DNA from: Sulfuricurvum sp.
Lineage (GTDB): Bacteria; Campylobacterota; Campylobacteria; Campylobacterales; Sulfurimonadaceae
Reading direction: 5' to 3'
Assembly: GCA_020721585.1 (NCBI GenBank)
Contig: DYMK01000001.1
Location: 310,001-374,000 of the forward strand
DNA: 64,000 nucleotides
Shown here in pieces: positions 1,088 through 14,733 of this stretch (position 1 is its first letter; each line of letters begins with the position of its first letter). The position numbers and the translations under genes are program-made. The notes beneath the pieces were generated by a model that saw only the letters and a list, made by a program, of their open reading frames with translations, had not been told where the DNA came from and did not search any database.

Positions 1088-2686
1088 TTACCGCCCCGCG
1101 TTTACCAAATCCAACCCCCTTTGATAGACCTGTGTTTGTACCCCATTCATCCCCAAAAGGGTGTGAAAAATCGTATCTTGGGATTGGGGTTGGGTGGCAC
1201 GTTCGTGGAGTGTGCGCGCATCAACGGTGAAGTTTTTCCCGAACCACATCACCGCAGGGACGTGTTTTTGGGCTTCGGGGGCGATAGCGTAGGGAAATCC
1301 GTGCAAATACAGCCCTTTTTCCCCCAACGACTCCCCATGGTCACTCACGTACATCATCGCTGTGGCGAAATGGTCATCATTTTCTTTGAGCAATGCGATC
1401 GTACGGTTCAAAAAGGCATCGGTATAGGTGATGGCATTGTCATACGCATTGATGATCGATTGTTGGGAACACTGCTCTAATTGATTGCTTTGACACACGG
1501 GTGTGAAGGTCTCATAGTTTTTGGGATACCGTTTAAAATAGGCAGGGCCGTGATTCCCCATTTGGTGCAAAACAATAAGGATATTCCCTTTGGGGTGGGT
1601 ATGAATATAGTCTTGCAACCCGACAAGCATCCCCTCATCACGGCACTCTTCATCGCAGACGCTGTTTTTGTCAGAGGTTTTATAATCCTCATAGGCTACG
1701 CGCAAAGCGACCCCTTTGGAATCGGAGTTATTATCCCGCCACAGTACATTGACCCCCGCACGTTGTAAGACATCCAAAACGTTTTGGGTGTGTTGGGCTT
1801 TTTCCCCATTGTAATTTTCCCGCCCGAAGGGAGAGAACATACACGGTACCGATACCGCGGTCTCGGTGCCGCACGAGGTGAATTGGGTAAAATTGATCAC
1901 CCCCGCTTGGGACAACAACGGCGTAGTGGGGCGTGCGTAACCATTGAGACCAAAATGATCCCACCGTACCGCTTCGCCTACGACCATAATGATGAGTTTA
2001 CGCGGTGCGCGTGAGGGGGGAATGTGCGCATCCGCACCAATCACCGCAATCCCCTCGTACGGATGAGAAAGAGCATGATAGGTATATTCGACACTGGAGT
2101 AGATAAATACCGCTGGATTTGCATAGAGTCGTAGGGTCGGATGCTCGCGAAAAAAGGAGGTGTAGTATTTGCTAAAGAGTCCAAACATCACCGCAATGAC
2201 TACGATTGCCCCCACGATCGTTTTGACCATCTGAATGAGGGTTGTTTTCAGTGACATCGCCCTAATAGGGGTACGATAGAGAATCCATGAGGGGAGAACG
2301 CCCAACACAAGGACATACCCAACCAATGTAGGGCTAAAGAGATCCAGCGATTCATGGATATTGGTCTCAAGGACGTTTTGGATCATATGGGCATCGATCA
2401 CCGCATTATAGGTATCCATAAAATACGCCACAAACGAACCGATCATAAAGACCACAATGGTGATGGGTTTGAAGCTCTCTTTAAACGACACCACCGCCAA
2501 AAGTACCACAAAAACACTCCCCAACATCACCCCCAATGAAAGAAGAAAAGGGAGATTTTCCCATGTTAGTGCATAGATTTCACCCACATGATGAAAAAAC
2601 GCGTAATTGGAAAAAAGAACCCAAAACATCGCCACCATTAGGGTGATAAAACGGTTACTTTGGGGGGTTTGGAACCATGAAGTCAT
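1088..2686 (-). CDS. eptA: phosphoethanolamine transferase (EptA/EptC family)
   Basis: This 532-residue protein has about five N-terminal membrane segments (to about residue 180) followed by a periplasmic sulfatase/alkaline-phosphatase-fold domain. The nucleophile motif GTETAVSVPC supplies the catalytic threonine, and VSDHGESLGE supplies metal-binding residues. The family moves phosphoethanolamine from phosphatidylethanolamine to lipid A; in Campylobacter jejuni the relative EptC also modifies the flagellar rod protein and N-glycans. The pgl N-glycan locus nearby makes a glycan substrate conceivable. The gene starts 31 bases after the helicase gene stops, so the two may be co-transcribed. Confidence 0.88.
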   Translation of the reverse strand: MTSWFQTPQSNRFITLMVAMFWVLFSNYAFFHHVGEIYALTWENLPFLLSLGVMLGSVFVVLLAVVSFKESFKPITIVVFMIGSFVAYFMDTYNAVIDAHMIQNVLETNIHESLDLFSPTLVGYVLVLGVLPSWILYRTPIRAMSLKTTLIQMVKTIVGAIVVIAVMFGLFSKYYTSFFREHPTLRLYANPAVFIYSSVEYTYHALSHPYEGIAVIGADAHIPPSRAPRKLIIMVVGEAVRWDHFGLNGYARPTTPLLSQAGVINFTQFTSCGTETAVSVPCMFSPFGRENYNGEKAQHTQNVLDVLQRAGVNVLWRDNNSDSKGVALRVAYEDYKTSDKNSVCDEECRDEGMLVGLQDYIHTHPKGNILIVLHQMGNHGPAYFKRYPKNYETFTPVCQSNQLEQCSQQSIINAYDNAITYTDAFLNRTIALLKENDDHFATAMMYVSDHGESLGEKGLYLHGFPYAIAPEAQKHVPAVMWFGKNFTVDARTLHERATQPQSQDTIFHTLLGMNGVQTQVYQRGLDLVNAGR

Positions 2687-2716: not shown

Positions 2717-5700
2717 TTATACGCTAGGTTGAGATAATACCGTTTTAAGGGGGTCTTTGTCCATCCGTACCAAACACAGTACTTGGTCATACGTTTGATT
2801 TTTTTCTTTATCTTCCCATCGGACGACATATTCGATGGTAGCTTCAGGATAGAGGGTATACCCTTGTGTCTCTTTTTGGCAAATTTTGTCACTTAAGCGT
2901 GTTTGCCCCCCTTTGGGTGCGGAGAGAACGCCGATGGTTTTTCTCTCTTTGGTCAGTTTAAACCAAACCGTGCCATCTTTGTTTGTCTTTTTTTCGATCT
3001 GTACGGTCTCTCCTGCTTTGGGAGAGGTTGCGACTACCCCTTGTGCAGCGGCTTCACTTCCCAGTGATACGTCCTCCAATCTCATAGCAAAAAGGATCGT
3101 AGTGGGGGGTGTGTCCTTTTGGGTCACGCTAAGCACCGCATTGGCTAAGGGTTCCATGGAATCAAAACATCGATCTTGGGTATGGATAAAAAGATTCTCT
3201 TTGGCACGGGTCATAGCGACATAAAGCAATCGACGGTCATAGTCATTGCGTATAAAAGTATTTTCCACCATCATATAAACATGTTGAAACTCTTTTCCTT
3301 TGGCTTTGTGCATGGTGGAGATGGTCACTTTGGCTTTGGTGGTGGGAAATTCGTCAAATTCGATCTCTTGGAGAAATATTTCAAAGACATTTGCCCACTC
3401 ATTGCCCGTAGTCGAATCAAAAAATTCAATCATACTGCACGCAAGGGGATAGTGGGGAGAGATTTTATAGTTTTTTTCCAGCCATATTTTGGCTTCATCA
3501 AAAGACGACGCTTTCCACTGAGAGAGAAATTCTTGCAATTCGACCAGTTGCCCCAAGCCAAACCCCTCTTTTGAGGTAAGGTATTTGACATTAATCCCCG
3601 CTGCTTTGAGGAGAGAATAGAGGGTTAAGACCGCATCATTGGTTCTGCATAGGATGGCAATGTCTTCTGAAGGATCGTTTTCTATCGTAGTGACAAGATG
3701 AATCATCATGGAACTATCGCGAGGATAATGGTGTATTTCGATTCTTCCCTCCTTGCTATGGTGTGCGATTAAATCCTCTTGTTTGAGTCGGTTGGGGATT
3801 GTTTGGGCAAAGGTATTGGCAAACGTGACCAGATTATGGTTACTTCGATAATTGGTTAAGAGCCAATAGCAAGCAACGTTTCCTAAATGCTCTTCCTCCT
3901 CTGAATCATCAACACGATGACCAAAATCGGTTTCAAATTTAGACATAAATGCGACCTCAGCTTGATACTCTCCCCCGAAATTATTGATACATTGGTCATC
4001 ATCCCCTACGGCGATAATCCGTTTACCGGATTCCATGTGATTGAAAATAGCGGTGATAAATCGGTAAGTTTTTGCCCCCACATCTTGGTACTCATCCAAC
4101 ACCAACATGGTTTTAAACGGAAGTTCAATCATGCCTGATTCTAACCCCTTGGTCGCATGGTCAATCGCTTCATGGAGAGAAGTGGCTCCCGATCGTCCAA
4201 TTAATTGCAACGCATAGGCATGAAACGTCATAATCTCGACCTCGTAGGCCAAATTTCCAATGAGTTTTTCCAATCGTGTACGAAACTCATGCGCCGCTGC
4301 ACGTCCATGGGTAAGCATCAAAAAATGGTCAGGTTTTTGGTGTTCTAGGGTAATGAGGGAGGCGATTTTATGCACCAAAGTTTTGGTCTTACCACTGCCA
4401 GGCCCTGCAAGTACCATCACCGCAGGGTTGGTTTTATCCTCGAAAATTTTGGTTTGTTCGTCGTTGAGGTTACGGATAATTTCCTCATATCGTTCTTGAG
4501 TCATGGGACGTTTGATGGCCGTTTCACTAAACTGATACCGTTTTTTAAACGCCTTATACTCCATCGAAAAATAGTCACGGATAAAAGCGACACATTTGTC
4601 CCACCCCTCTTGGAGGAGTTTTTTGAAAAATTCCATCAAAATATGGATTGCTTCGGTTTTGCGTTCGTAATAGAGTGCCAAACTCTGATTGTAATCGCGT
4701 AGCTTTTGGTAGGGTTTTTTCTCTTGGATCCGCTCTTTTTTACGCAAGGATACCCCTTGATAGTAGATCAATCGCCCTTTGCGCAATTTGAATTCTTTAA
4801 GGGTATCGTGCATATAAACAAGGGTGTGATGAAACCCTTGAATGCTGAGTGTCTTGTGCATCTCATTGATGGTTTTTTTGAGTTGTGTGGAAGAAAATTC
4901 AACTTCATTGTGTGTCTCATCGTGTTTGTGCAACAAGGTAGTGATAATCCCCCGTGCGATTTTTTGACGACTTTTTACCACGGCTTCCATATCACTTTGG
5001 CTAAAATCATCTACGATATAACAATGATCTTTGTGAAATTTGAGGTTAAAATTTTTCTTTGCCAAGCGGGCTAAATGGGTAAAACTTTGAAGAATTTTTT
5101 TAGAAAGGGGAATATGATTGATGGTGGCACCCAAACTATCATTTAAATCGCGTAAATGAAACCCTTTTTGATAGGGGGGGAGTGACCCTAAAAAAGTTAA
5201 AATTTTAGTTTCCAATTCAAAATGTTTTTCCAACTCTTGGAGTACTTTTTTGGTCATATAGACACTTATATCGTTCTCCATCGCGATGAGTTCATACTGT
5301 GCCAATTCATAGAGGATTGTGTGAATCTCATTGCGTTGTATCCCCGTATAGTCGGAGAGGTCATCCACTTCGATGGGTTCAAGCTTACTTCGTCCTATGA
5401 GCGTTGCCATCACCCGTATCATCTCCTCATACAAGGCCCCCAAACGCTCTTTATGGGGATCAAGAACATCACGTACATACTCCATCCCTGAAGTATTTTC
5501 CCCTTTTTGGAGTGAAGTGGCGTAAATTTTGGTGGTATTACGCCCCCGCTCAAGGATCCCGACGTTTTCAAGTTCCAAGAGGGCGGTTTTAATCATCCCC
5601 TCATAGTCGTGTGCGCTATCTTCGGTATCAATGCCCGCTTTATGGGCGATTTGTTTGAGGGAGAGGATGGTGGGATTGCGTTTTTCGTTTTTAATCTCTC

Positions 5701-7627
5701 TGAGGATACGGGTAATTTCGGCATACTCAATTTTGCTCCGATTTTGCTGGATAAAGAGTTTATCAAAATCTTTGGGGGCATACAAAAGGATACACTCTGC
5801 ATCAATTGCCTCCGACCGCCCGCCACGACCCGATTCTTGGAGATACGACTCCAACGAATCTGAGGTCTCATAGTGGATTACCGCCTCAATATTGGGCTTA
5901 TCAATCCCCATCCCAAAGGCAGTGGTCGCAACCACAATATCAATTTTATCGGCAATAAAATCGTTAAGAATTTCCGATTTATTCCGTCCTTGCCGTTTTC
6001 CATTTTCTATTTCCGTGTCAATTTTGGCATAAAATGGTTCAATTTCCAACCCTATTGCACCCATGCGTGGATCATCTTTTAGCTTTTGGGAGAGTTCTTG
6101 ACAGCGACGTGCATTGTGGGGAATATAGATAATCATCGCCTTTTTCCCGATGCGTTGTATCTCTTTAATGAGCATTTCGTATTTTTCTTTTTCATCGGCA
6201 ACTTCAAGGGCTTTGTAATGCAAATTGTTACGTTGGGTTGAGGCGATATGATCCACCAAAGTGAGATTTAATTTATCCAAAAAATAATGCTTGATGTCCT
6301 CAATCACCTTTGGTTTTGCCGTGGCGGTTAAACACGATACGGGAATGGTTCCTTGAAAAGGGGATTGGGTTTGAAGATCACGAATAAATGTGGCAATGTA
6401 GTTATAATCATGGCGAAAATCATGCCCCCACGACGAAAAACAGTGGGCTTCATCAATGACAAACCGCGCAATAATACGCTTCTTAAACGCACTAAAAATG
6501 GAATTGGAACGGAGTGCTTCAGGGGCAATATAGACAATATCAATAATCCCATTTTCCACTTCGGCGATGGCATTGAGGCGTTCAATGGGGCTAAGGTATC
6601 CGCTAATAGCAGCGACTTTGAAATTGTGATTTTTTTCCCGAAAACTCTCGACATGATTTTTCATCAACGCTTGCAAGGGAGAAATAACCACCGTAAGAGC
6701 TTTGTACGCACGGGCGGTGATGAGCGCTGGCATTTGAAAGGTGAAGGTTTTTCCTCCCCCTGTTGGGAGAATCGCCAGTAAGGATTCCCCGTTTAAGGCA
6801 GATTCGATGATGATTTTTTGGGATATTTTAGGGAGTGCTTGACTAAAAAGATCATCCCCTTTGTCTCTGGCATCAAATTCTCGAAATCCTTTGAGGTTAA
6901 ATTCATCCTGTGCAAATTGGGACAAATTCAGTAAAGAGGGATCATACAACAAGGCTTTGAGTAGGGTCACTATTTTAGGAAAGGTTTGTAATACGGCATA
7001 CGATAACGACGTACGATCACGACCCATAAGATAGACCATGATAATCCCCATTTCGGTAGGGGATTGCGCTAAGAGGGTCTCAAATGTCTCGTGCGAACAA
7101 AGGACATGGGGTTTAAAAAAATCGTAGAGGGTTACCGTAGGGGGTTCTAAGCGAAGATAGGTAAAAAAAGCTTCGTAATAGGGATCTTTTTTTAGTAGTT
7201 CACTCAAAAGCGATTGCACAACAGGGTCAAGTGAACCAAATCGTTCCATCATCCGTTCCAAGAGTTCCCGCGTGGCAACACAATCCCCAAATGGGTCATT
7301 TTGGATATGCGCCTCGGTCTTGTAGGGTTTGGAGAGTTTATGGGTCAGTGTGTCGGGGTACAAAAGCATCGAGAGATAAAAGGTATCGATAATCTTCGCG
7401 GTTTGAAAAATAGGATTAAACGTGGTCTCTAAAAGAAATTTTTTATCATGATTGATGAAGTTATGCCCACAAATATAGGGAGGTTTATGGGCAAAATAGA
7501 GTTCTCGTATCTCACTGACACTGGTTCCATTGTAGTGAACATCATTCAACAATGCACCCACGCGATCAATCACATGAGTATGAATACGCACTTCTAAATC
7601 CATAAAAAAAATATCCGCTAAAGGCAT
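2717..7627 (-). CDS. Exonuclease-RecQ-UvrD fusion helicase
   Basis: This 1636-residue protein joins three nucleic-acid enzymes. Residues 1-130 look like a DEDD exonuclease: D10 and E12 in FMDLEV, H60-D61 in HNFINHD, and D115. A RecQ-type helicase follows, with Walker A PTGGGKT at 288, DEAH at 392, the aromatic-rich loop CFSSWGHDF and the arginine-finger motif ESGRGGR. The cysteine zinc ribbon of RecQ is not visible. A UvrD/Rep superfamily 1 helicase forms the C-terminal part: AGPGSGKT at 1074, DEYQD at 1178, GDDDQ, TNYRS and VAMTRAKE. All motor motifs look intact, so two active translocases in one chain are plausible. Ordinary RecQ and UvrD are about 600-730 residues each. A DNA repair or phage-defence role is inference. 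The ATG at 7627 keeps the exonuclease D10 and E12. Confidence 0.88.
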   Translation of the reverse strand: MPLADIFFMDLEVRIHTHVIDRVGALLNDVHYNGTSVSEIRELYFAHKPPYICGHNFINHDKKFLLETTFNPIFQTAKIIDTFYLSMLLYPDTLTHKLSKPYKTEAHIQNDPFGDCVATRELLERMMERFGSLDPVVQSLLSELLKKDPYYEAFFTYLRLEPPTVTLYDFFKPHVLCSHETFETLLAQSPTEMGIIMVYLMGRDRTSLSYAVLQTFPKIVTLLKALLYDPSLLNLSQFAQDEFNLKGFREFDARDKGDDLFSQALPKISQKIIIESALNGESLLAILPTGGGKTFTFQMPALITARAYKALTVVISPLQALMKNHVESFREKNHNFKVAAISGYLSPIERLNAIAEVENGIIDIVYIAPEALRSNSIFSAFKKRIIARFVIDEAHCFSSWGHDFRHDYNYIATFIRDLQTQSPFQGTIPVSCLTATAKPKVIEDIKHYFLDKLNLTLVDHIASTQRNNLHYKALEVADEKEKYEMLIKEIQRIGKKAMIIYIPHNARRCQELSQKLKDDPRMGAIGLEIEPFYAKIDTEIENGKRQGRNKSEILNDFIADKIDIVVATTAFGMGIDKPNIEAVIHYETSDSLESYLQESGRGGRSEAIDAECILLYAPKDFDKLFIQQNRSKIEYAEITRILREIKNEKRNPTILSLKQIAHKAGIDTEDSAHDYEGMIKTALLELENVGILERGRNTTKIYATSLQKGENTSGMEYVRDVLDPHKERLGALYEEMIRVMATLIGRSKLEPIEVDDLSDYTGIQRNEIHTILYELAQYELIAMENDISVYMTKKVLQELEKHFELETKILTFLGSLPPYQKGFHLRDLNDSLGATINHIPLSKKILQSFTHLARLAKKNFNLKFHKDHCYIVDDFSQSDMEAVVKSRQKIARGIITTLLHKHDETHNEVEFSSTQLKKTINEMHKTLSIQGFHHTLVYMHDTLKEFKLRKGRLIYYQGVSLRKKERIQEKKPYQKLRDYNQSLALYYERKTEAIHILMEFFKKLLQEGWDKCVAFIRDYFSMEYKAFKKRYQFSETAIKRPMTQERYEEIIRNLNDEQTKIFEDKTNPAVMVLAGPGSGKTKTLVHKIASLITLEHQKPDHFLMLTHGRAAAHEFRTRLEKLIGNLAYEVEIMTFHAYALQLIGRSGATSLHEAIDHATKGLESGMIELPFKTMLVLDEYQDVGAKTYRFITAIFNHMESGKRIIAVGDDDQCINNFGGEYQAEVAFMSKFETDFGHRVDDSEEEEHLGNVACYWLLTNYRSNHNLVTFANTFAQTIPNRLKQEDLIAHHSKEGRIEIHHYPRDSSMMIHLVTTIENDPSEDIAILCRTNDAVLTLYSLLKAAGINVKYLTSKEGFGLGQLVELQEFLSQWKASSFDEAKIWLEKNYKISPHYPLACSMIEFFDSTTGNEWANVFEIFLQEIEFDEFPTTKAKVTISTMHKAKGKEFQHVYMMVENTFIRNDYDRRLLYVAMTRAKENLFIHTQDRCFDSMEPLANAVLSVTQKDTPPTTILFAMRLEDVSLGSEAAAQGVVATSPKAGETVQIEKKTNKDGTVWFKLTKERKTIGVLSAPKGGQTRLSDKICQKETQGYTLYPEATIEYVVRWEDKEKNQTYDQVLCLVRMDKDPLKTVLSQPSV

Positions 7628-7747: not shown

Positions 7748-7807
7748 ATGTCAAAAATGGTTCAAATTACCCACTATTATCGTTCTTTCTTGAAAAATTC
7801 ACAGTGA
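7748..7807 (+). CDS. 19-residue leader ORF overlapping the next start codon
   Basis: An ATG preceded by AAAGGGA at a spacing of five bases opens a 19-codon ORF whose TGA overlaps the GTG start of the following gene (GTGA, 7804-7807). The peptide begins MSKMVQITHYY. The close -10 box at 7722, the ribosome binding site and the stop/start overlap suggest translational coupling: ribosomes finishing the leader could reinitiate on the GTG, which has no strong site of its own. No homology is recognised, so the peptide may matter only through being translated. Confidence 0.4.
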   Translation: MSKMVQITHYYRSFLKNSQ

Positions 7808-8724
7808 AATCCTACCTCCGCACATTCGCTTCCCTTGTCATTGTGCTTTTAAGCCTCATGGTCATAGGGGGATTTTTAGGGAAATTACACCCTTTTTTCG
7901 ATTCATTGAGCCATTTTAGACTCCATCTTTTGGGGATACTTTCACTCTGTCTTTCGGTGCTGTTTTTTTTCACCACCCCTAAAAAGCAATATCTGATTTT
8001 TACTTTGTTACTCTTCATCGCGGGATATGGGTATCTTTTTATGACCCCATTTTTAAGAACCACTACTTCACAGGGTCGTATGATTAAAACGATGCAGTTT
8101 AATTTACTGTGCATGAACCAAAAGATGAGTTTTGTGAGTAGCTATTTAATCTATCATCCGGTTGATGTCGTGACGTTTCAAGAAGTGACCTTCGCCCATA
8201 AACGCTTTATCGATGCCCTCAAGCCCTACTATCCGTATCAAGTTTTTTGTGACAACGGGGGGATTCATGGGGTTGGAGGGGAGATGATCATCTCGAAATT
8301 TCCCTTTACGGGGAGAGGGGAGTGTCTACAAGACCATGGGCTAGTATGGCGTGAAATTGCGGTGAAAGATCGTACTATTTCGGTGGTGTCGTTGCACCTT
8401 CATTGGCCCTATCCTTATCCCCAATATCAACACATATCGCTCTTGTCCCAAGAACTTAAAACCCTTCATGGTACGAAAATAGTGATGGGGGATTTTAATG
8501 CCGTTGGGTGGAGTCATGCGGTTCATCGCATTCAAGAGAGTTCCCATACCCACATCATCGATGGGGTACGCTGGAGCATTCGGGTCAACACCCCCTTTAT
8601 TCCGCTGTGGCTCCCGATCGATCACGTCTTGCTCTCCCCCGATATTGGTGTCCAAAGCATTCAGGTAGGAGAAGACTTGGGGAGTGACCATCGTCCTATT
8701 GTGACGACGCTTACGTTATCGTAA
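7804..8724 (+). CDS. endonuclease/exonuclease/phosphatase family membrane protein
   Basis: The first 90 residues of this 306-residue protein contain about three hydrophobic segments; the rest is an endonuclease/exonuclease/phosphatase fold domain. Visible active-site elements are FNLLCMN, the glutamate in TFQEV, the HLHW segment, MGDFNA with its catalytic Asp and Asn, and the closing GSDHRPI with the catalytic His. The domain probably faces the periplasm. Such proteins hydrolyse phosphodiesters or phosphomonoesters; the substrate cannot be read from sequence. The GTG start is chosen because it overlaps the leader ORF stop and gives an intact membrane anchor. The gene converges on pglF with only two bases between the stop codons. 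Confidence 0.85.
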   Translation: MKSYLRTFASLVIVLLSLMVIGGFLGKLHPFFDSLSHFRLHLLGILSLCLSVLFFFTTPKKQYLIFTLLLFIAGYGYLFMTPFLRTTTSQGRMIKTMQFNLLCMNQKMSFVSSYLIYHPVDVVTFQEVTFAHKRFIDALKPYYPYQVFCDNGGIHGVGGEMIISKFPFTGRGECLQDHGLVWREIAVKDRTISVVSLHLHWPYPYPQYQHISLLSQELKTLHGTKIVMGDFNAVGWSHAVHRIQESSHTHIIDGVRWSIRVNTPFIPLWLPIDHVLLSPDIGVQSIQVGEDLGSDHRPIVTTLTLS

Positions 8725-8726
8725 GT

Positions 8727-10499
8727 TCATCCCCCCATCGCTCTAAATTCCGGGACGATCTTTTGAAGCGCGGGGACTATCTCTGAAGTAGAAAGAAGGT
8801 GGTCAATATCGCGACGGAGTTGATCAATCGGGTAAGGGGTAGAGCGGGCGATAAGGATGGATTCAAACATCGTTTTGTGTTCACTCTCATCGATGAGTAA
8901 CTCTTCGTACAATTTTTCCCCCGCACGCAATCCGGTATAGACAATCTCAATGGGGGTGGTCGCATAAAGGCGTATCATGGTCTGTGCCAAAGTAGCAATT
9001 TTGACCGGTTCCCCCATATCAAGGATAAAAAGCTCCCCGCCACGGGCGATAGCGGCCGCTTGGAGGACGAGCTGACACGCTTCATCGATGAGCATAAAAT
9101 AGCGGGTAATCTCAGGATGGGTGAGGGTCACTGGCCCTCCCGCTTCGATTTGGGCTTTAAATTTGGGGATAACACTGCCACTGGAGCCTAACACATTCCC
9201 AAAGCGTACTGCCACAATCTCACTCTCGCAGGGATCGACATTATGGGCGTAGAGTTCCACGATCCGTTTGGTTGTCCCCATAATGTTGGTGGGGCGTACC
9301 GCTTTATCGGTGGAGATAATGACAATTTTGGGGATCTTAGCTGCGATAGCGCTGTCGATGAGGGTGATACTCCCGTGGATATTGTTCTCAATGGCGATGC
9401 GACCGTTGGCTTCGCACAAGGGGACGTGTTTGTAAGCTGCGGCATGAATGAGAATATCAGGATGGGTAGTGCGCCACAGGGTATTAAGCATCTGGGAATG
9501 GAGGATACTGCCCAACTGGAGCGTTGCGTGGGGGAGTTTTTCCCCGATTTGGTAGAGATTGTATTCGCTGTGATCGATGAGGATGAGATGTTTCGCCCCA
9601 AACTGATGACATTGAAGAGCAATTTCGCTTCCGATACTCCCCCCAGCACCCGTGATGGCAACCACTTTACCCCGAATAAAGTGTTCGATGGTGGTACGAT
9701 CGAGATCTTGGGGATGACGGGCTAAGAGATCTTCGATGCGCAGAGGCTCCACCCGACTGATGGTATCGTTGAGGATGGAGGCGCGTTGAATGTCCCGAAT
9801 TGAGGTCTCTTGAAGCGTGGCGTAGAGCGATTGGATGGTGCTTTGGGGGAGCGAACCATCGATAATGGCGGTGGTAAGGTTATGGGTCTGGATTAAGCTT
9901 AAGAGTTTAGTTGGGTCATAGACTTTGATATTACAGATGGTCGAACCGATCATGGAGAGGTTCTTTTCCCGTATAGCGATGAGTCCCAAGGGGTAATAGC
10001 CCGCTTTAATCAATCCATGGATCAGTAAATCGCTATGGGATGAGATACCGATAATCACGGTGGGTTTGAGGGTGTGAATATTCCCCAAGGAGTGAATTAC
10101 CAGCTGTTTGGCAAAACGTAATCCCCCCAACAGCGTAAAGGAGCAAAACGCATCAATAATGACCACACTGCGAGGAAACGGAGAAAAAAAGTGGGGAAAA
10201 ACCAAAAACGTAATCACAAAGAAAAGATAGGTCAAAAGATGGGCATACAAAAGTTTTTGGGCATCATTGAGGGCAAAAAATCGCCAGATAAACGAATACC
10301 CCCCCACCATCATAATCAAAAAAAGTTTAAGTCCCACGATGACCAATGCCACCCGTGGGAAAGGGGTGAGAAACATTTCCGGAATGGCAAAATTAAACCG
10401 TAATAAATAGGCTCCATAGAGGGTGATGAGCGAAAGGATCGCATCACTGAGGAGAAAAAAGAGGAGCCGTTTGGCACTGCTGGGGTGAAGCCATCGCAT
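8727..10499 (-). CDS. pglF: UDP-GlcNAc 4,6-dehydratase PglF
   Basis: This 590-residue protein, the same length as Campylobacter jejuni PglF, starts with about four membrane helices. A regulatory Rossmann-like region follows, then a cytoplasmic short-chain dehydrogenase domain with TGAGGSIGSE for NAD(P) binding and STDKAVRPTNIMG, the form of the catalytic segment that replaces the usual Tyr by Met in membrane dehydratases. PglF makes UDP-4-keto-6-deoxy-GlcNAc, the first step to UDP-diacetylbacillosamine. It is the last gene of the pgl operon, starting two bases after pglE stops. Confidence 0.93.
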   Translation of the reverse strand: MRWLHPSSAKRLLFFLLSDAILSLITLYGAYLLRFNFAIPEMFLTPFPRVALVIVGLKLFLIMMVGGYSFIWRFFALNDAQKLLYAHLLTYLFFVITFLVFPHFFSPFPRSVVIIDAFCSFTLLGGLRFAKQLVIHSLGNIHTLKPTVIIGISSHSDLLIHGLIKAGYYPLGLIAIREKNLSMIGSTICNIKVYDPTKLLSLIQTHNLTTAIIDGSLPQSTIQSLYATLQETSIRDIQRASILNDTISRVEPLRIEDLLARHPQDLDRTTIEHFIRGKVVAITGAGGSIGSEIALQCHQFGAKHLILIDHSEYNLYQIGEKLPHATLQLGSILHSQMLNTLWRTTHPDILIHAAAYKHVPLCEANGRIAIENNIHGSITLIDSAIAAKIPKIVIISTDKAVRPTNIMGTTKRIVELYAHNVDPCESEIVAVRFGNVLGSSGSVIPKFKAQIEAGGPVTLTHPEITRYFMLIDEACQLVLQAAAIARGGELFILDMGEPVKIATLAQTMIRLYATTPIEIVYTGLRAGEKLYEELLIDESEHKTMFESILIARSTPYPIDQLRRDIDHLLSTSEIVPALQKIVPEFRAMGG

Positions 10500-10501
10500 A
10501 C

Positions 10502-11608
10502 TTATAAGGCTTTATGAATCAAGTGCGCTATGCGTATGACCGTATCGTGATCCATTTGGGTACCACTGGGGAGACAAAGTCCTTTAGCAAAGAGGGTGTC
10601 CGAGACCCCATTTTGGAGGGAGAGGGCTTCTTTGAACAGCGGTTGCGCGTGCATCGGTTTCCACAACGGGCGACTCTCAATCCCCTCTTTTTCCAAGGCT
10701 AAACGGACACGGTTGGGATTTGTGTGTTCAAACGTGAGGGTCGTGAGCCAACGGTTCCCCACCGTATCGGGCAATTCTGGCATAAAGGTGATCTCCTCAA
10801 TCTCCCCTAATGCTTCCCGATACCACCCAAAAATTTTCCGACGTTGGGCGATACGTTCGTTAAGTACCTCCATTTGCGCTACCCCAATGGCGGCAAGTAC
10901 ATTGCTCATTCGATAGTTGTATCCGTACTCCAAATGTTCGTAATGGGGGACATTTTCCCGCGCTTGGGTGGCGTAAAATCGGGCTTTGTCGATAAGATGG
11001 GGATCCGAAGAGACCAACATTCCCCCCCCTGAGGTGCTGAGGATTTTGTTCCCATTAAAACTGTACACCCCCAAGGTTCCTAATGTCCCCGTTTGACCCC
11101 CACGATAGCGAGATCCCAAACTCTCCGCTGCATCTTCGATCAGGGAAATACCATACGCATCGCACACCGCAAGAATGGGATCAATAGCGGCACACTGACC
11201 GTACAAATGGGTGAGTATCAACGCTTTGGGCTTTTTTGGGGCGGTGAGGATGGCGTGTTCTAGCAAGGTAGGATCAAGATTCCAACTGGCGTAGTCACTG
11301 TCGATAAAAATCGGGGTGGCATTTTGGTAGAGGATGGGGGCGACCGAACCAATAAACGTAAAGGATGAGGTGAGGACATAATCTCCTACCCCAACCCCTA
11401 AAACCCGTAACGCCAAATGCAATGCTGCCGTAGCCGAAGCGAGGGCAAGGGCGTATGGCGTTTGGGTAAAACGTTGAATGCTGTGTTCAAAACGATCCAC
11501 CATAGGGCCAAGTGGAGCGATGTAGTTGCTCTCAAACACCTCAGCAAGGTACGCTTGCTCCCGACCGCTCATGTGGGGTGGGGAGAGAAAAATGGGGCGT
11601 GGTTTCAC
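10502..11608 (-). CDS. pglE: UDP-4-amino sugar aminotransferase PglE
   Basis: This 368-residue DegT/DnrJ/EryC1 family aminotransferase uses PLP and glutamate to convert the PglF product to the 4-amino sugar. The PLP-binding lysine is K188 in NGNKILSTSGGG, and HLYGQCAAID and EDAAES are typical of the family. It sits between pglB and pglF with two-base gaps on both sides, so it is clearly part of the operon. Sugar aminotransferases of other pathways look similar; the assignment to the bacillosamine pathway rests on the neighbours. Confidence 0.92.
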   Translation of the reverse strand: MKPRPIFLSPPHMSGREQAYLAEVFESNYIAPLGPMVDRFEHSIQRFTQTPYALALASATAALHLALRVLGVGVGDYVLTSSFTFIGSVAPILYQNATPIFIDSDYASWNLDPTLLEHAILTAPKKPKALILTHLYGQCAAIDPILAVCDAYGISLIEDAAESLGSRYRGGQTGTLGTLGVYSFNGNKILSTSGGGMLVSSDPHLIDKARFYATQARENVPHYEHLEYGYNYRMSNVLAAIGVAQMEVLNERIAQRRKIFGWYREALGEIEEITFMPELPDTVGNRWLTTLTFEHTNPNRVRLALEKEGIESRPLWKPMHAQPLFKEALSLQNGVSDTLFAKGLCLPSGTQMDHDTVIRIAHLIHKAL

Positions 11609-11610
11609 CG

Positions 11611-13722
11611 TTACACTTTCAGTTTATAAATTTTGGTGAGCGGGTCAAGGAAAACTGGCTCAAAAAGTTTAGGGTCATAATGTTCAAATACAAAAAGTTG
11701 GATGTAAGTCGAATGGAGGTAAAAATCGTCCAAAATCAAAAACTTCCCGTAGCTGGAGAGATAAATGACATTAACCCCTTCCGAGGCAAACTGTTGCTCT
11801 TGAATTTGCAATTTCATTGCATTGTCATACCCCACTTGATAAAACCCTTTGATAGGTACCTCTTGACCCCCAATTTTGAGCATATTTTGGGCTTTGATAA
11901 TCGAGACCACACCCCCATCCAATTCAAGGGTTTTGCCCGTATCCTCGACCCCTTGACTGGCATAAAAGAGGGGTTGTTGCGGTTGCGCTTGGGGATTTTG
12001 AAGATCCAATTGGCTAAATAATGCGACGGTAGGGAGAATCTCCATCATCCGTAAAGGGAGATACAAATAGACATTGCGCGTTGCTTTGGGTAAAGTTGTC
12101 GGATTAGCGTGCACGGTAGTGATCAAATCATCGGCACTGGTCACCTTGTAGTCTTTGAACATTTGGGCGATGATTTGGGTTTGGTTGGTTTTGAACCCTT
12201 TTTCGGTGTATTCGACACTCAGACGGGACATGAGTGCCGCATTGGTTTGGGGTTGGGTAAGGATATAGCTGGCAGGATAGTTGACATCACCGCTGTGTTT
12301 TCCCCCATCGACCAGCGTTTTGACATCACTGTAATAGCGAATAGGGTACCCATAATCCCACCAACTAATCATGTAGTCTTCACGTGAAGCACGCTTTCGT
12401 AACTGATCTAAGGCATGTACCTCTTTGGTTATAAGGACAGTGGGATTTTTATACTCTTGAATATGTTTATAATTGGGATACAGTGCAGCTCCTGTGAAAA
12501 CCACAACGGTGAGGAGCTGAAGCCATTTTTTTTCGATAAACTGGATAAGATAAAATAAGAGATACCCAAATCCCAGTGCCATAGGGGCAACGGCATAGAT
12601 GGTAAAACGCAACCCTGCTGACATCGCAATAAAACCCAATCCCACCAGTGGAAGGGTGAGAATTAGGGGACGATACGCCAAAAGGGCAAGAAGATACCCA
12701 ACACACGCCAACACAAATACCATCGTGCTACCACTGATCCGCTCCGCAAAGACGGTAAAGGGGATATGCCCCGCTTCGCGCACCGTTTGGGCGACGTTGT
12801 AAAAATGAAGCCCTGCTGTCTCAGAGACATTGTCCCGAAAGAGGTAACTTTTAAGCTCATTCCAGATGGGATCAACCCCACCCGTCGCAAAATAGAGGGC
12901 AAATCCTGCCCCAAAGACCATCCAAAACCATTTTTTATCCAACGTGGGTTGAAAATGAAAAAGGGTAAAAAGGGCTAAGGCAAGGGCAAGCTTAAGGACT
13001 AAAGGGAGCGATAACAGCCCCAAGAGGATAAACAAGACAATTTTATACAAATGGTGATTGTTGCGTTCAAATACCACTGTATACAACAACATTGTCACCA
13101 AAATAGCGGTATTGAGAGAATAACTTTGGGGATACCACCACCCATTGAGGGCGACCATCAGTGTGATGGGAAGTAAAAAGTGGTTGCGTTGATGGGTCAT
13201 TGCGAGCATCAAAAAATACAACGAAAACATCGGTAAGACAATGGTGAGCATATCGGTATCGTAATAGCCACTCATGGTACGGTTGTAATAACTGTTGGCA
13301 ATCCCAGCTAACAGGGCAGCAACAAATCCCATGGAGGTTTGATTAAAAAGTCGTCCCATTAATACAAGGGGGATAACAATCAGCGATCCAAAAACCGAGG
13401 GCATATACAGCAGTAAGGTTTCAAAACTCACAGGGAGAATTTTGGCTAACCACGCCGTTAACATTGCCAAAGGATCGGTGATGGGGGAGAGGTCATTGGG
13501 TTGATGACTCCCTGCTAAAAGGTCGCGCGCCCCTTCGGCAAAATAATACCCATCGTTGGTATTGATCATGAGGGCATTGTTCCAAAAGAAGGTGGAGACA
13601 TTTTGCGCCTCACCAATCCAAATCATCCGCATCCCCACCGAAAAGAGGTAGGCAATGAGAATAGAAAGAATGACCATTTTGGTGGTATTGAGTGAAACAC
13701 TCTGTGGAATTTGAAATTTCAT
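11611..13722 (-). CDS. pglB: bacterial oligosaccharyltransferase PglB
   Basis: This 703-residue STT3-family protein transfers a lipid-linked glycan to Asn in the bacterial sequon D/E-x-N-x-S/T on the periplasmic side of the inner membrane. About 12-13 membrane segments fill residues 15-430. The first external loop has the metal-site motif NTNDGYYFAEG, and DTDML gives the second acidic pair. The signature WWDYG is at residues 454-458, followed by PIRYYSDVKTLVDGGKHSG, very close to the Campylobacter jejuni sequence. All key catalytic elements are present, so the enzyme should be active. It is separated from pglD by an Rpn-type nuclease gene. Confidence 0.96.
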   Translation of the reverse strand: MKFQIPQSVSLNTTKMVILSILIAYLFSVGMRMIWIGEAQNVSTFFWNNALMINTNDGYYFAEGARDLLAGSHQPNDLSPITDPLAMLTAWLAKILPVSFETLLLYMPSVFGSLIVIPLVLMGRLFNQTSMGFVAALLAGIANSYYNRTMSGYYDTDMLTIVLPMFSLYFLMLAMTHQRNHFLLPITLMVALNGWWYPQSYSLNTAILVTMLLYTVVFERNNHHLYKIVLFILLGLLSLPLVLKLALALALFTLFHFQPTLDKKWFWMVFGAGFALYFATGGVDPIWNELKSYLFRDNVSETAGLHFYNVAQTVREAGHIPFTVFAERISGSTMVFVLACVGYLLALLAYRPLILTLPLVGLGFIAMSAGLRFTIYAVAPMALGFGYLLFYLIQFIEKKWLQLLTVVVFTGAALYPNYKHIQEYKNPTVLITKEVHALDQLRKRASREDYMISWWDYGYPIRYYSDVKTLVDGGKHSGDVNYPASYILTQPQTNAALMSRLSVEYTEKGFKTNQTQIIAQMFKDYKVTSADDLITTVHANPTTLPKATRNVYLYLPLRMMEILPTVALFSQLDLQNPQAQPQQPLFYASQGVEDTGKTLELDGGVVSIIKAQNMLKIGGQEVPIKGFYQVGYDNAMKLQIQEQQFASEGVNVIYLSSYGKFLILDDFYLHSTYIQLFVFEHYDPKLFEPVFLDPLTKIYKLKV

Positions 13723-13734
13723 AAAAATCGTTCC

Positions 13735-14733
13735 TTAGGTTCTAAGATGGTGTATGTCGATAGGGGATAACCCCGTTTTAAGGGCAATGGTCTCATCATC
13801 CAAAATATCCAAAAGGTTTTGGGCAATGGCAAGCTTAGCGTGCTTTTCCCCCTCACGTTTCCCTTTTTCAAGACCTTCAGCGAGTCCTTTTTCTAAACCT
13901 TTTTCAATCCCCTCAGCGAGTCCTTTTTCTAAACCTTTTTCAATCCCCTCAGCGAGTCCTTTTTCTAAACCTTTTTCAAGACCTTCTGCTAGACCTTCTG
14001 CTAGTCCTTTGGCAAGAGCCGTATCTTTGGCTTTGCGTAGGGCATTTTCTTCATCACGCTCTTTCATCGCGACCCAATCGTAGATACGCATATCTTCTTT
14101 ATTCCATTGGTAGCGTGTTGCGATTAAAAACGCTTCGGTGAATTCAGGTAGAGACTCATACTGGGATGGGATAAAATCCAAAGTGGTCGCATTTTTGAGA
14201 AAAAACATCCATTTATCTAAAATGGTGTTCAGTTCTTCTAAGCTTTTGGTAAATTTATTGAGTTCAATAAACGTAAACTCAAAATCCTTCAGATCGTGAG
14301 AGAGGGTATCTTTATTGAGAATAAGGTGTCGAGAGATGTAGTCGGTGTTGTCTAACATATTAAAATTCAATATCCCGATAAAATAGACTTTTTTCAATCG
14401 ATTGTAATCTTGACTTACATCCAATTGTTCCACATACGCTTTGGAGGTGTAATACAAACTTCGCTTGGTAAAGTCGTACAAATCTCTTTTTTGCATCTCA
14501 ATGATAAACTCTTCACCCGCCTCATTTTTGGCCTTAATGTCCAAGATGGTAAGTTTCATCTCCTCAATTTTAGGGACTTGGGTTGGGCTCACCAAATCAA
14601 CGTGGGCGATTTTTTTATCCCCCTTGAAATCCAAAATAGCATTTAAAAAAGAGATCAAAATCGCTTTATGTTGTTCATCACCAAAGATTTTTTTAAAAGC
14701 AACGTCGTTTCGGGGATCGGCAAATTGCATCAA
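13735..14733 (-). CDS. Rpn/PD-(D/E)XK nuclease family protein with tandem repeats
   Basis: This 332-residue protein starts with the family signature FADPRNDVAFKKIFG and contains LDIKAKNEAGEEFIIEMQ (about residues 64-81), whose Asp and E-x-Q are the nuclease residues. It belongs to the Rpn (recombination-promoting nuclease)/transposase-like PD-(D/E)XK group. The C-terminal part, residues 240-305, is a run of Gly-Leu-Ala-Glu-Gly and Glu-Lys-Gly units with a 12-residue period, probably helical. It lies between pglD and pglB, 8 and 12 bases from its neighbours, with no link to glycosylation known. Insertion into the operon is the simplest explanation. Confidence 0.85.
   Translation of the reverse strand: MMQFADPRNDVAFKKIFGDEQHKAILISFLNAILDFKGDKKIAHVDLVSPTQVPKIEEMKLTILDIKAKNEAGEEFIIEMQKRDLYDFTKRSLYYTSKAYVEQLDVSQDYNRLKKVYFIGILNFNMLDNTDYISRHLILNKDTLSHDLKDFEFTFIELNKFTKSLEELNTILDKWMFFLKNATTLDFIPSQYESLPEFTEAFLIATRYQWNKEDMRIYDWVAMKERDEENALRKAKDTALAKGLAEGLAEGLEKGLEKGLAEGIEKGLEKGLAEGIEKGLEKGLAEGLEKGKREGEKHAKLAIAQNLLDILDDETIALKTGLSPIDIHHLRT
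13869..13976. repeat. three 36-bp tandem repeats inside the Rpn gene
   Basis: Three adjacent copies of a 36-bp unit begin at 13869, 13905 and 13941. The second and third appear identical and the first differs in a few bases near its start. The unit codes for 12 residues of the Glu-Lys-Gly-Leu/Ala-Glu-Gly type, and shorter degenerate copies continue on both sides. As 36 is a multiple of three, gain or loss of copies changes protein length but keeps the frame. Confidence 0.9.

Follow-up and report, generated by a model that had tools for sequence, protein, structure and literature searches.

The question raised by this locus is what kind of enzyme one Sulfuricurvum sp. gene encodes when an exonuclease and two helicase motors are read from a single chain, and what use it would be to its carriers. 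The gene lies in the window, the 64,000 bp stretch of DNA that was analysed. It is one ORF of 1636 codons on the minus strand (7627..2717) with an ATG start. A sequence-only reading of the window had described a triple fusion of exonuclease, RecQ-type and UvrD-type helicase of 1636 residues, and this was confirmed by the ORF, by Pfam and TIGR00614 and by full-length homologues. The Pfam matches, all above cut-off, were DEAD (residues 270-444), Helicase_C (482-605), UvrD-helicase (from 1054) and UvrD_C (to 1483). The same domain order was found in full-length homologues across many phyla, which rules out an assembly artefact as the source of the fusion. NCBI labels these homologues 'RecQ family ATP-dependent DNA helicase'. 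They form a real enzyme family that is apparently undescribed. The individual modules are all known; no description of the triple fusion, with a RecQ SF2 motor, a UvrD SF1A motor and a nuclease in one chain, was found in the literature searched, subscription journals being outside that search.

Table 1. Features of the fusion gene, with positions in the window
Feature	Position	Strand	Evidence
Whole gene: exonuclease, RecQ motor, winged helices, UvrD motor, C-terminal domain	2717..7627	-	ORF, profile domains, full-length homologues
Predicted DnaQ-like DEDD exonuclease and helical extension, residues 1-262	6842..7627	-	AF2 model, structural neighbors, conservation
RecQ-type SF2 motor, residues ~266-640, motifs intact	5708..6832	-	TIGR00614, Pfam, PDB sequence matches
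Inter-motor array of about four predicted winged-helix domains, residues ~635-963	4739..5725	-	AF2 model, PDB structure matches
Helical linker, residues ~975-1050, with conserved H995, D1018, Y1019, F1020 and F1027	4478..4705	-	AF2 secondary structure, conservation
Compact UvrD/PcrA-type SF1A motor, residues 1051-1490	3158..4477	-	Pfam/TIGR profiles, conservation, motif spacing
Conserved C-terminal domain, residues 1491-1636	2720..3157	-	Aligned in 31 homologues

The N-terminus alone had no Pfam match of its own. In 60 homologues the weak Pfam matches were mostly to the DNA polymerase B exonuclease, which was hit in 11 of them (best 5e-4). An AF2 model of residues 1-262, built with 60 homologues as input, had a pLDDT of 91.3 and a pTM of 0.84, and the predicted fold is DnaQ-like. 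The top structural neighbor was the exonuclease region of Staphylococcus aureus DinG (Z 13.9 and 13.0). Oligoribonuclease (Orn), E. coli Exo I and the exonuclease domains of Pol II and other polymerases followed at Z 11-12. DnaQ epsilon was also among the neighbors, which spanned Z 10-14 and place the domain in the DnaQ group of RNase H-like folds. The sequence-only reading had asked whether the first 130 or so residues are an exonuclease at all; they fold as one in the model and in the structural comparison.

The four acidic metal ligands of a DEDD site, proposed earlier from the sequence of the window, are D10, E12, D61 and D115. Among about 98 homologues D10, E12 and D61 were invariant (95/95 readable) and D115 was kept in 95 of 96. 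Residue 110, five before D115, was Asn in 91 of 96 homologues, Ser in four and Lys in one. Asn at the usual position of the catalytic His is a family trait and makes the exonuclease atypical, as had been proposed. DEDDh enzymes carry His five before the last Asp and DEDDy enzymes carry Tyr four before it. The fusion has N110 and, at position 111, Asp or Asn, so that it is neither DEDDh nor DEDDy. H55, D81, H96 and K100 were almost invariant among homologues, and the signature D-E-H-D-D-H-K-N-D was kept in 55 of the 57 sequences of the tree alignment. H96 and K100 sit in a conserved loop that was modeled with lower confidence. Either another residue would supply the base or the exonuclease site would be weak. 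Genome G288 carries a variant of 2039 residues (L179, 4898-11017), in which the alignment places larger insertions within the exonuclease domain, together with a second copy of the fusion (L178).

The RecQ part scored 236.6 bits against the RecQ subfamily model TIGR00614 (cut-off 219.8), which marks it as a RecQ-type SF2 motor and is the feature that it shares with canonical RecQ. It differs from canonical RecQ in falling far below the equivalog cut-off (TIGR01389, 250 vs 640.2 bits). In the PDB sequence search residues 267-622 matched E. coli RecQ (E 4.5e-44), and RecQ and BLM matches to this part ranged from E 1e-44 to 1e-40. Zinc-binding, RQC and HRDC domains had no Pfam match in the fusion. 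No CxxC was present at residues 605-760 in 57 aligned homologues, in agreement with the earlier observation that the cysteine zinc ribbon of RecQ is missing. A C-x2-4-C-x2-C zinc-knuckle-like motif lies directly before the RecQ motor in nearly all non-Campylobacterota lineages. It is absent from the window's Campylobacterota-gamma clade and from the cyanobacterial lineage.

Between the motors, the AF2 model of residues 618-1050 (pLDDT 90.5, pTM 0.64) contained roughly four units, each a helix-turn-helix with a wing, together with a linker of helices. Structure matches of this model were mostly winged-helix regulators, the best at Z 9.2 over 74 residues. The second motor matched PF00580 (93.7 bits) and PF13361 (72.3 bits), and residues 1048-1145 matched PcrA in the PDB sequence search. 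Motifs I-VI were present in order with invariant catalytic residues, as in SF1A helicases. The score was below the cut-off of the PcrA equivalog (125.4 vs 911.2 bits) and also below that of the UvrD equivalog. Motifs I and II are 104 aa apart vs 186 in one UvrD of the same genome, and motifs IV and VI are 210 aa apart vs 310 in that UvrD; the fusion thus has reduced 1B and 2B inserts. The C-terminal stretch of about 146 residues was conserved in 31 homologues yet had no consistent Pfam or PDB-sequence match. A HIRAN-like C-terminus was also considered; a profile search of the 31 members gave no HIRAN match at E<=10. The sequence-only reading had given the two motors different polarity. Translocation is 3'->5' on the bound strand in the RecQ as well as in the UvrD family, and by family the motors are expected to run the same way.

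The fusion was compared to known systems. In WRN, too, a single chain begins with a DEDD exonuclease and continues with a RecQ motor. The WRN exonuclease is DEDDy and WRN is without a UvrD motor, whereas the fusion has Asn for Tyr or His and no RQC or HRDC match. S. aureus DinG, the closest solved fold, joins an exonuclease to an SF2 helicase but has a DEDDh site and a single XPD-like 5'->3' motor (PMC12345164), in contrast to the N110 site and the RecQ and UvrD motors of the fusion. AdnAB, AddAB and RecBCD likewise combine two motor or motor-like modules with a nuclease that acts on DNA ends. They are heteromers with RecB-type PD-(D/E)XK nucleases and SF1 motors, whereas the fusion is one chain with a DnaQ-type nuclease and SF2 and SF1A motors, and no PD-(D/E)XK nuclease was matched in it by Pfam. 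PADLOC models matched single motors only (DpdF of Dpd with 244 bits to the RecQ part, GajB of Gabija with 137 bits to the UvrD part) and no PADLOC model spanned the whole fusion. Unlike Gabija and Dpd, the fusion is not accompanied by a conserved operon of GajA-like or Dpd partners.

The fusion was found in 13 of 298 Campylobacterota genomes from 10 genera (about 4%), in 3 of 37 genomes of the genus, in 21 of 101 genomes of one Bacteroidales family and in 3 of 100 genomes of one Flavobacteriia family (Bacteroidota), each count including the query's own genome. The sequence-only reading had named a universal housekeeping gene in the phylum as a case that would speak against it, and this patchy occurrence rules out a housekeeping gene. 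Plasmids with full-length copies came from Aliarcobacter, Bacteroides, Nostoc, Allochromatium, Thiothrix and Sulfitobacter, the copy of Allochromatium vinosum being ALVIN_RS15835. Among the matches listed, copies on chromosomes or MAG contigs came from Bacteroidota, Firmicutes, Gammaproteobacteria, Spirochaetes, Lentisphaerae, Aminicenantes and Campylobacterota. The same architecture also occurs in Alphaproteobacteria and Cyanobacteria. In the tree a gammaproteobacterial copy (MAG, 335-kb contig) was nested among Campylobacterota, and the copies of the window and of G015, which belong to the same genus, fell into different subclades. Degraded copies were seen in G041, with an internal stop, and in G055, where a remnant of about 200 aa is left. 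The distribution is one of horizontal gain and loss. A phage gene was considered and rejected, as no full-length match was found among 50,697 phage records. Full-length copies were also carried by IMG/VR contigs, which are putative viral contigs.

In the window the fusion is flanked by eptA on one side and by a divergent Exo_endo_phos gene on the other. The eptA gene (1088-2686, minus strand) encodes a phosphoethanolamine transferase and has moved; here it is beside ksgA and in genus relatives it is beside addA-rplM-rpsI. In relatives ksgA adjoins hisF and a large conserved gene, taken from its sequence to be RNase J. As eptA and ksgA have other neighbors in the relatives, the whole segment is rearranged in the window genome, and this rearrangement leaves no clean empty-site comparison with the genus relatives. 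The Exo_endo_phos protein (7804-8724, plus strand) adjoins the fusion and has an apparently membrane-anchored N-terminus. A search of 41 genomes of the genus at E<=1e-20 found its gene in no other genome, so that the fusion has a further accessory gene as its neighbor. Beyond it, a PglF-like dehydratase, a DegT-type aminotransferase and an STT3-type oligosaccharyltransferase were read in a row from the genes at 8727-13722 (minus strand), probably a protein glycosylation cluster. A PD-(D/E)XK family transposase (PF12784) follows at 13735-14733 (minus strand) and ends in tandem GLAEG(L/I)EKG-like repeats.

The surroundings of the homologues were varied. The stretch of about 18 kb that holds the closest relative (G023, 73%) also carries an HNH nuclease, an AbiEi-like regulator, a SoFic-like Fic protein and, at a tRNA-Leu, a tyrosine integrase. 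The G015 copy adjoins DUF2779 and dGTPase genes, and the G283 copy adjoins DUF2779, WYL, RhuM-like and LeoA/LeoBC-like genes. AbiE was among the defence-type neighbors of other homologues. About half of the Campylobacterota copies are surrounded by housekeeping genes. No partner gene family recurred over about 98 loci, and a conserved operon was rejected. The only exceptions were a DUF2779 gene upstream in two Campylobacterota, which overlaps the 5' end of the fusion (L043, 12589-13248; L170, 11983-13473), and a co-oriented canonical recQ 6-7 bp upstream in two Bacteroidales (L080, 9258-11306; L091, 9020-11062), likely placing two RecQ motors in one operon. In L043 a dGTPase-like gene also overlaps the 3' end of the fusion. 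For the best 25 families of PADLOC matches, the nearest genes showed no clear surplus over genes of the same loci at distances above 6.5 kb. Compared to random regions of the same genomes, Campylobacterota neighbors were somewhat richer (LeoA, dGTPase, SoFic and PDC candidates), with matches that come from about four loci.

The reading that accounts best for these observations, to which we give somewhat less than even confidence, is a standalone, horizontally exchanged, single-chain helicase-nuclease directed at 3' ends, which would act in the manner of WRN or DinG and whose main benefit would most likely be against incoming phage or plasmid DNA. The proposal draws nuclease and motor activity, polarity, coupling and target from family knowledge and anatomy. 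The winged-helix array would load the protein on a DNA end, a nick, or a branch or fork. The two 3'->5' motors would then draw in and unwind the duplex; they could follow each other along a single strand or each take one of the two strands of a fork. DnaQ-type nucleases degrade 3'->5', and the DnaQ-like domain would remove the exposed 3' strand. For the carrier, incoming phage or plasmid DNA and replication intermediates would be degraded or blocked, with conditional repair of host DNA as a close alternative. The earlier suggestion of a self-contained DNA-end processor fits this anatomy. A more specific form, a single-gene defence enzyme widespread across phyla that would destroy or block foreign DNA from 3' ends through a DEDD site with Asn, is put forward only tentatively. 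A defence role had been proposed before; the patchy spread on plasmids and islands and the several loci with defence-type genes speak for it, but there is neither a recurrent defence partner nor a clear enrichment. A foreign-DNA target is slightly favored over host repair because the spread is mobile and sporadic. Against the preferred reading stand the lack of a conserved neighbor, the Campylobacterota copies among housekeeping genes, the similar defence-type content of near and distant genes, the replaced catalytic His with its possible loss of nuclease activity, and the phage records with no full-length copy.

Among the alternatives, an accessory repair enzyme survives best and is a serious possibility, though short of probable. 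The fusion would be a bacterial analogue of WRN or of exonuclease-DinG, would act on stalled forks, crosslinks or 3' flaps, and would be kept or lost strain by strain. The order of exonuclease and RecQ motor is that of WRN, and the nearest exonuclease structure is that of S. aureus DinG, whose crosslink repair requires both its nuclease and its helicase (PMC12345164). In the genome of the window the fusion is the sole RecQ-like match, and no HRDC domain was found. Many copies are among chromosomal housekeeping genes, and in the two Bacteroidales loci a canonical recQ is directly upstream. However, a repair enzyme would not usually be limited to 4% of a phylum, ride on plasmids and islands or leave remnants, and several genomes carry a canonical RecQ in addition to the fusion.

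A dead exonuclease, which is compatible with the other readings, is unlikely. The domain would only hold the 3' end of DNA and the protein would be a pure translocase, for example one that strips proteins. N110 occupies the place that corresponds to H149 of S. aureus DinG, which is catalytic and whose Ala mutant is nearly inactive (PMC12345164), and Asn is the residue there in nearly all homologues. Judged by the sequence, this substitution could leave nuclease activity weak or nil. But across several phyla hardly any homologue has lost one of the four acidic ligands, and H55, H96 and K100 are almost invariant, which is more conservation than a dead site predicts. Less probable again is a maintenance factor of plasmids or integrative elements that would serve replication, recombination or the conversion of single- to double-stranded DNA after transfer. 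The pACIB copy is beside parA/parB and near replication genes, and copies are on large plasmids of several phyla, but most loci have no linked replication or transfer genes and many copies lie on chromosomes where no such element was seen nearby. A substitute for RecBCD/AddAB in the Sulfuricurvum sp. genome, as the sequence-only reading had suggested from one enzyme with a nuclease and two motors, is very improbable and was set aside, since adjacent AddB (778 aa) and AddA (901 aa), both matching PF12705, are encoded on another contig (L203), the nuclease type and motor set differ, and most relatives are without the gene.

The helicase-nuclease reading remains preferred. The fusion offers a single-polypeptide model for the coupling of two motors of the same expected polarity with an exonuclease. 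It is also a candidate standalone defence or end-processing enzyme in gut Bacteroidota and in many environmental bacteria.
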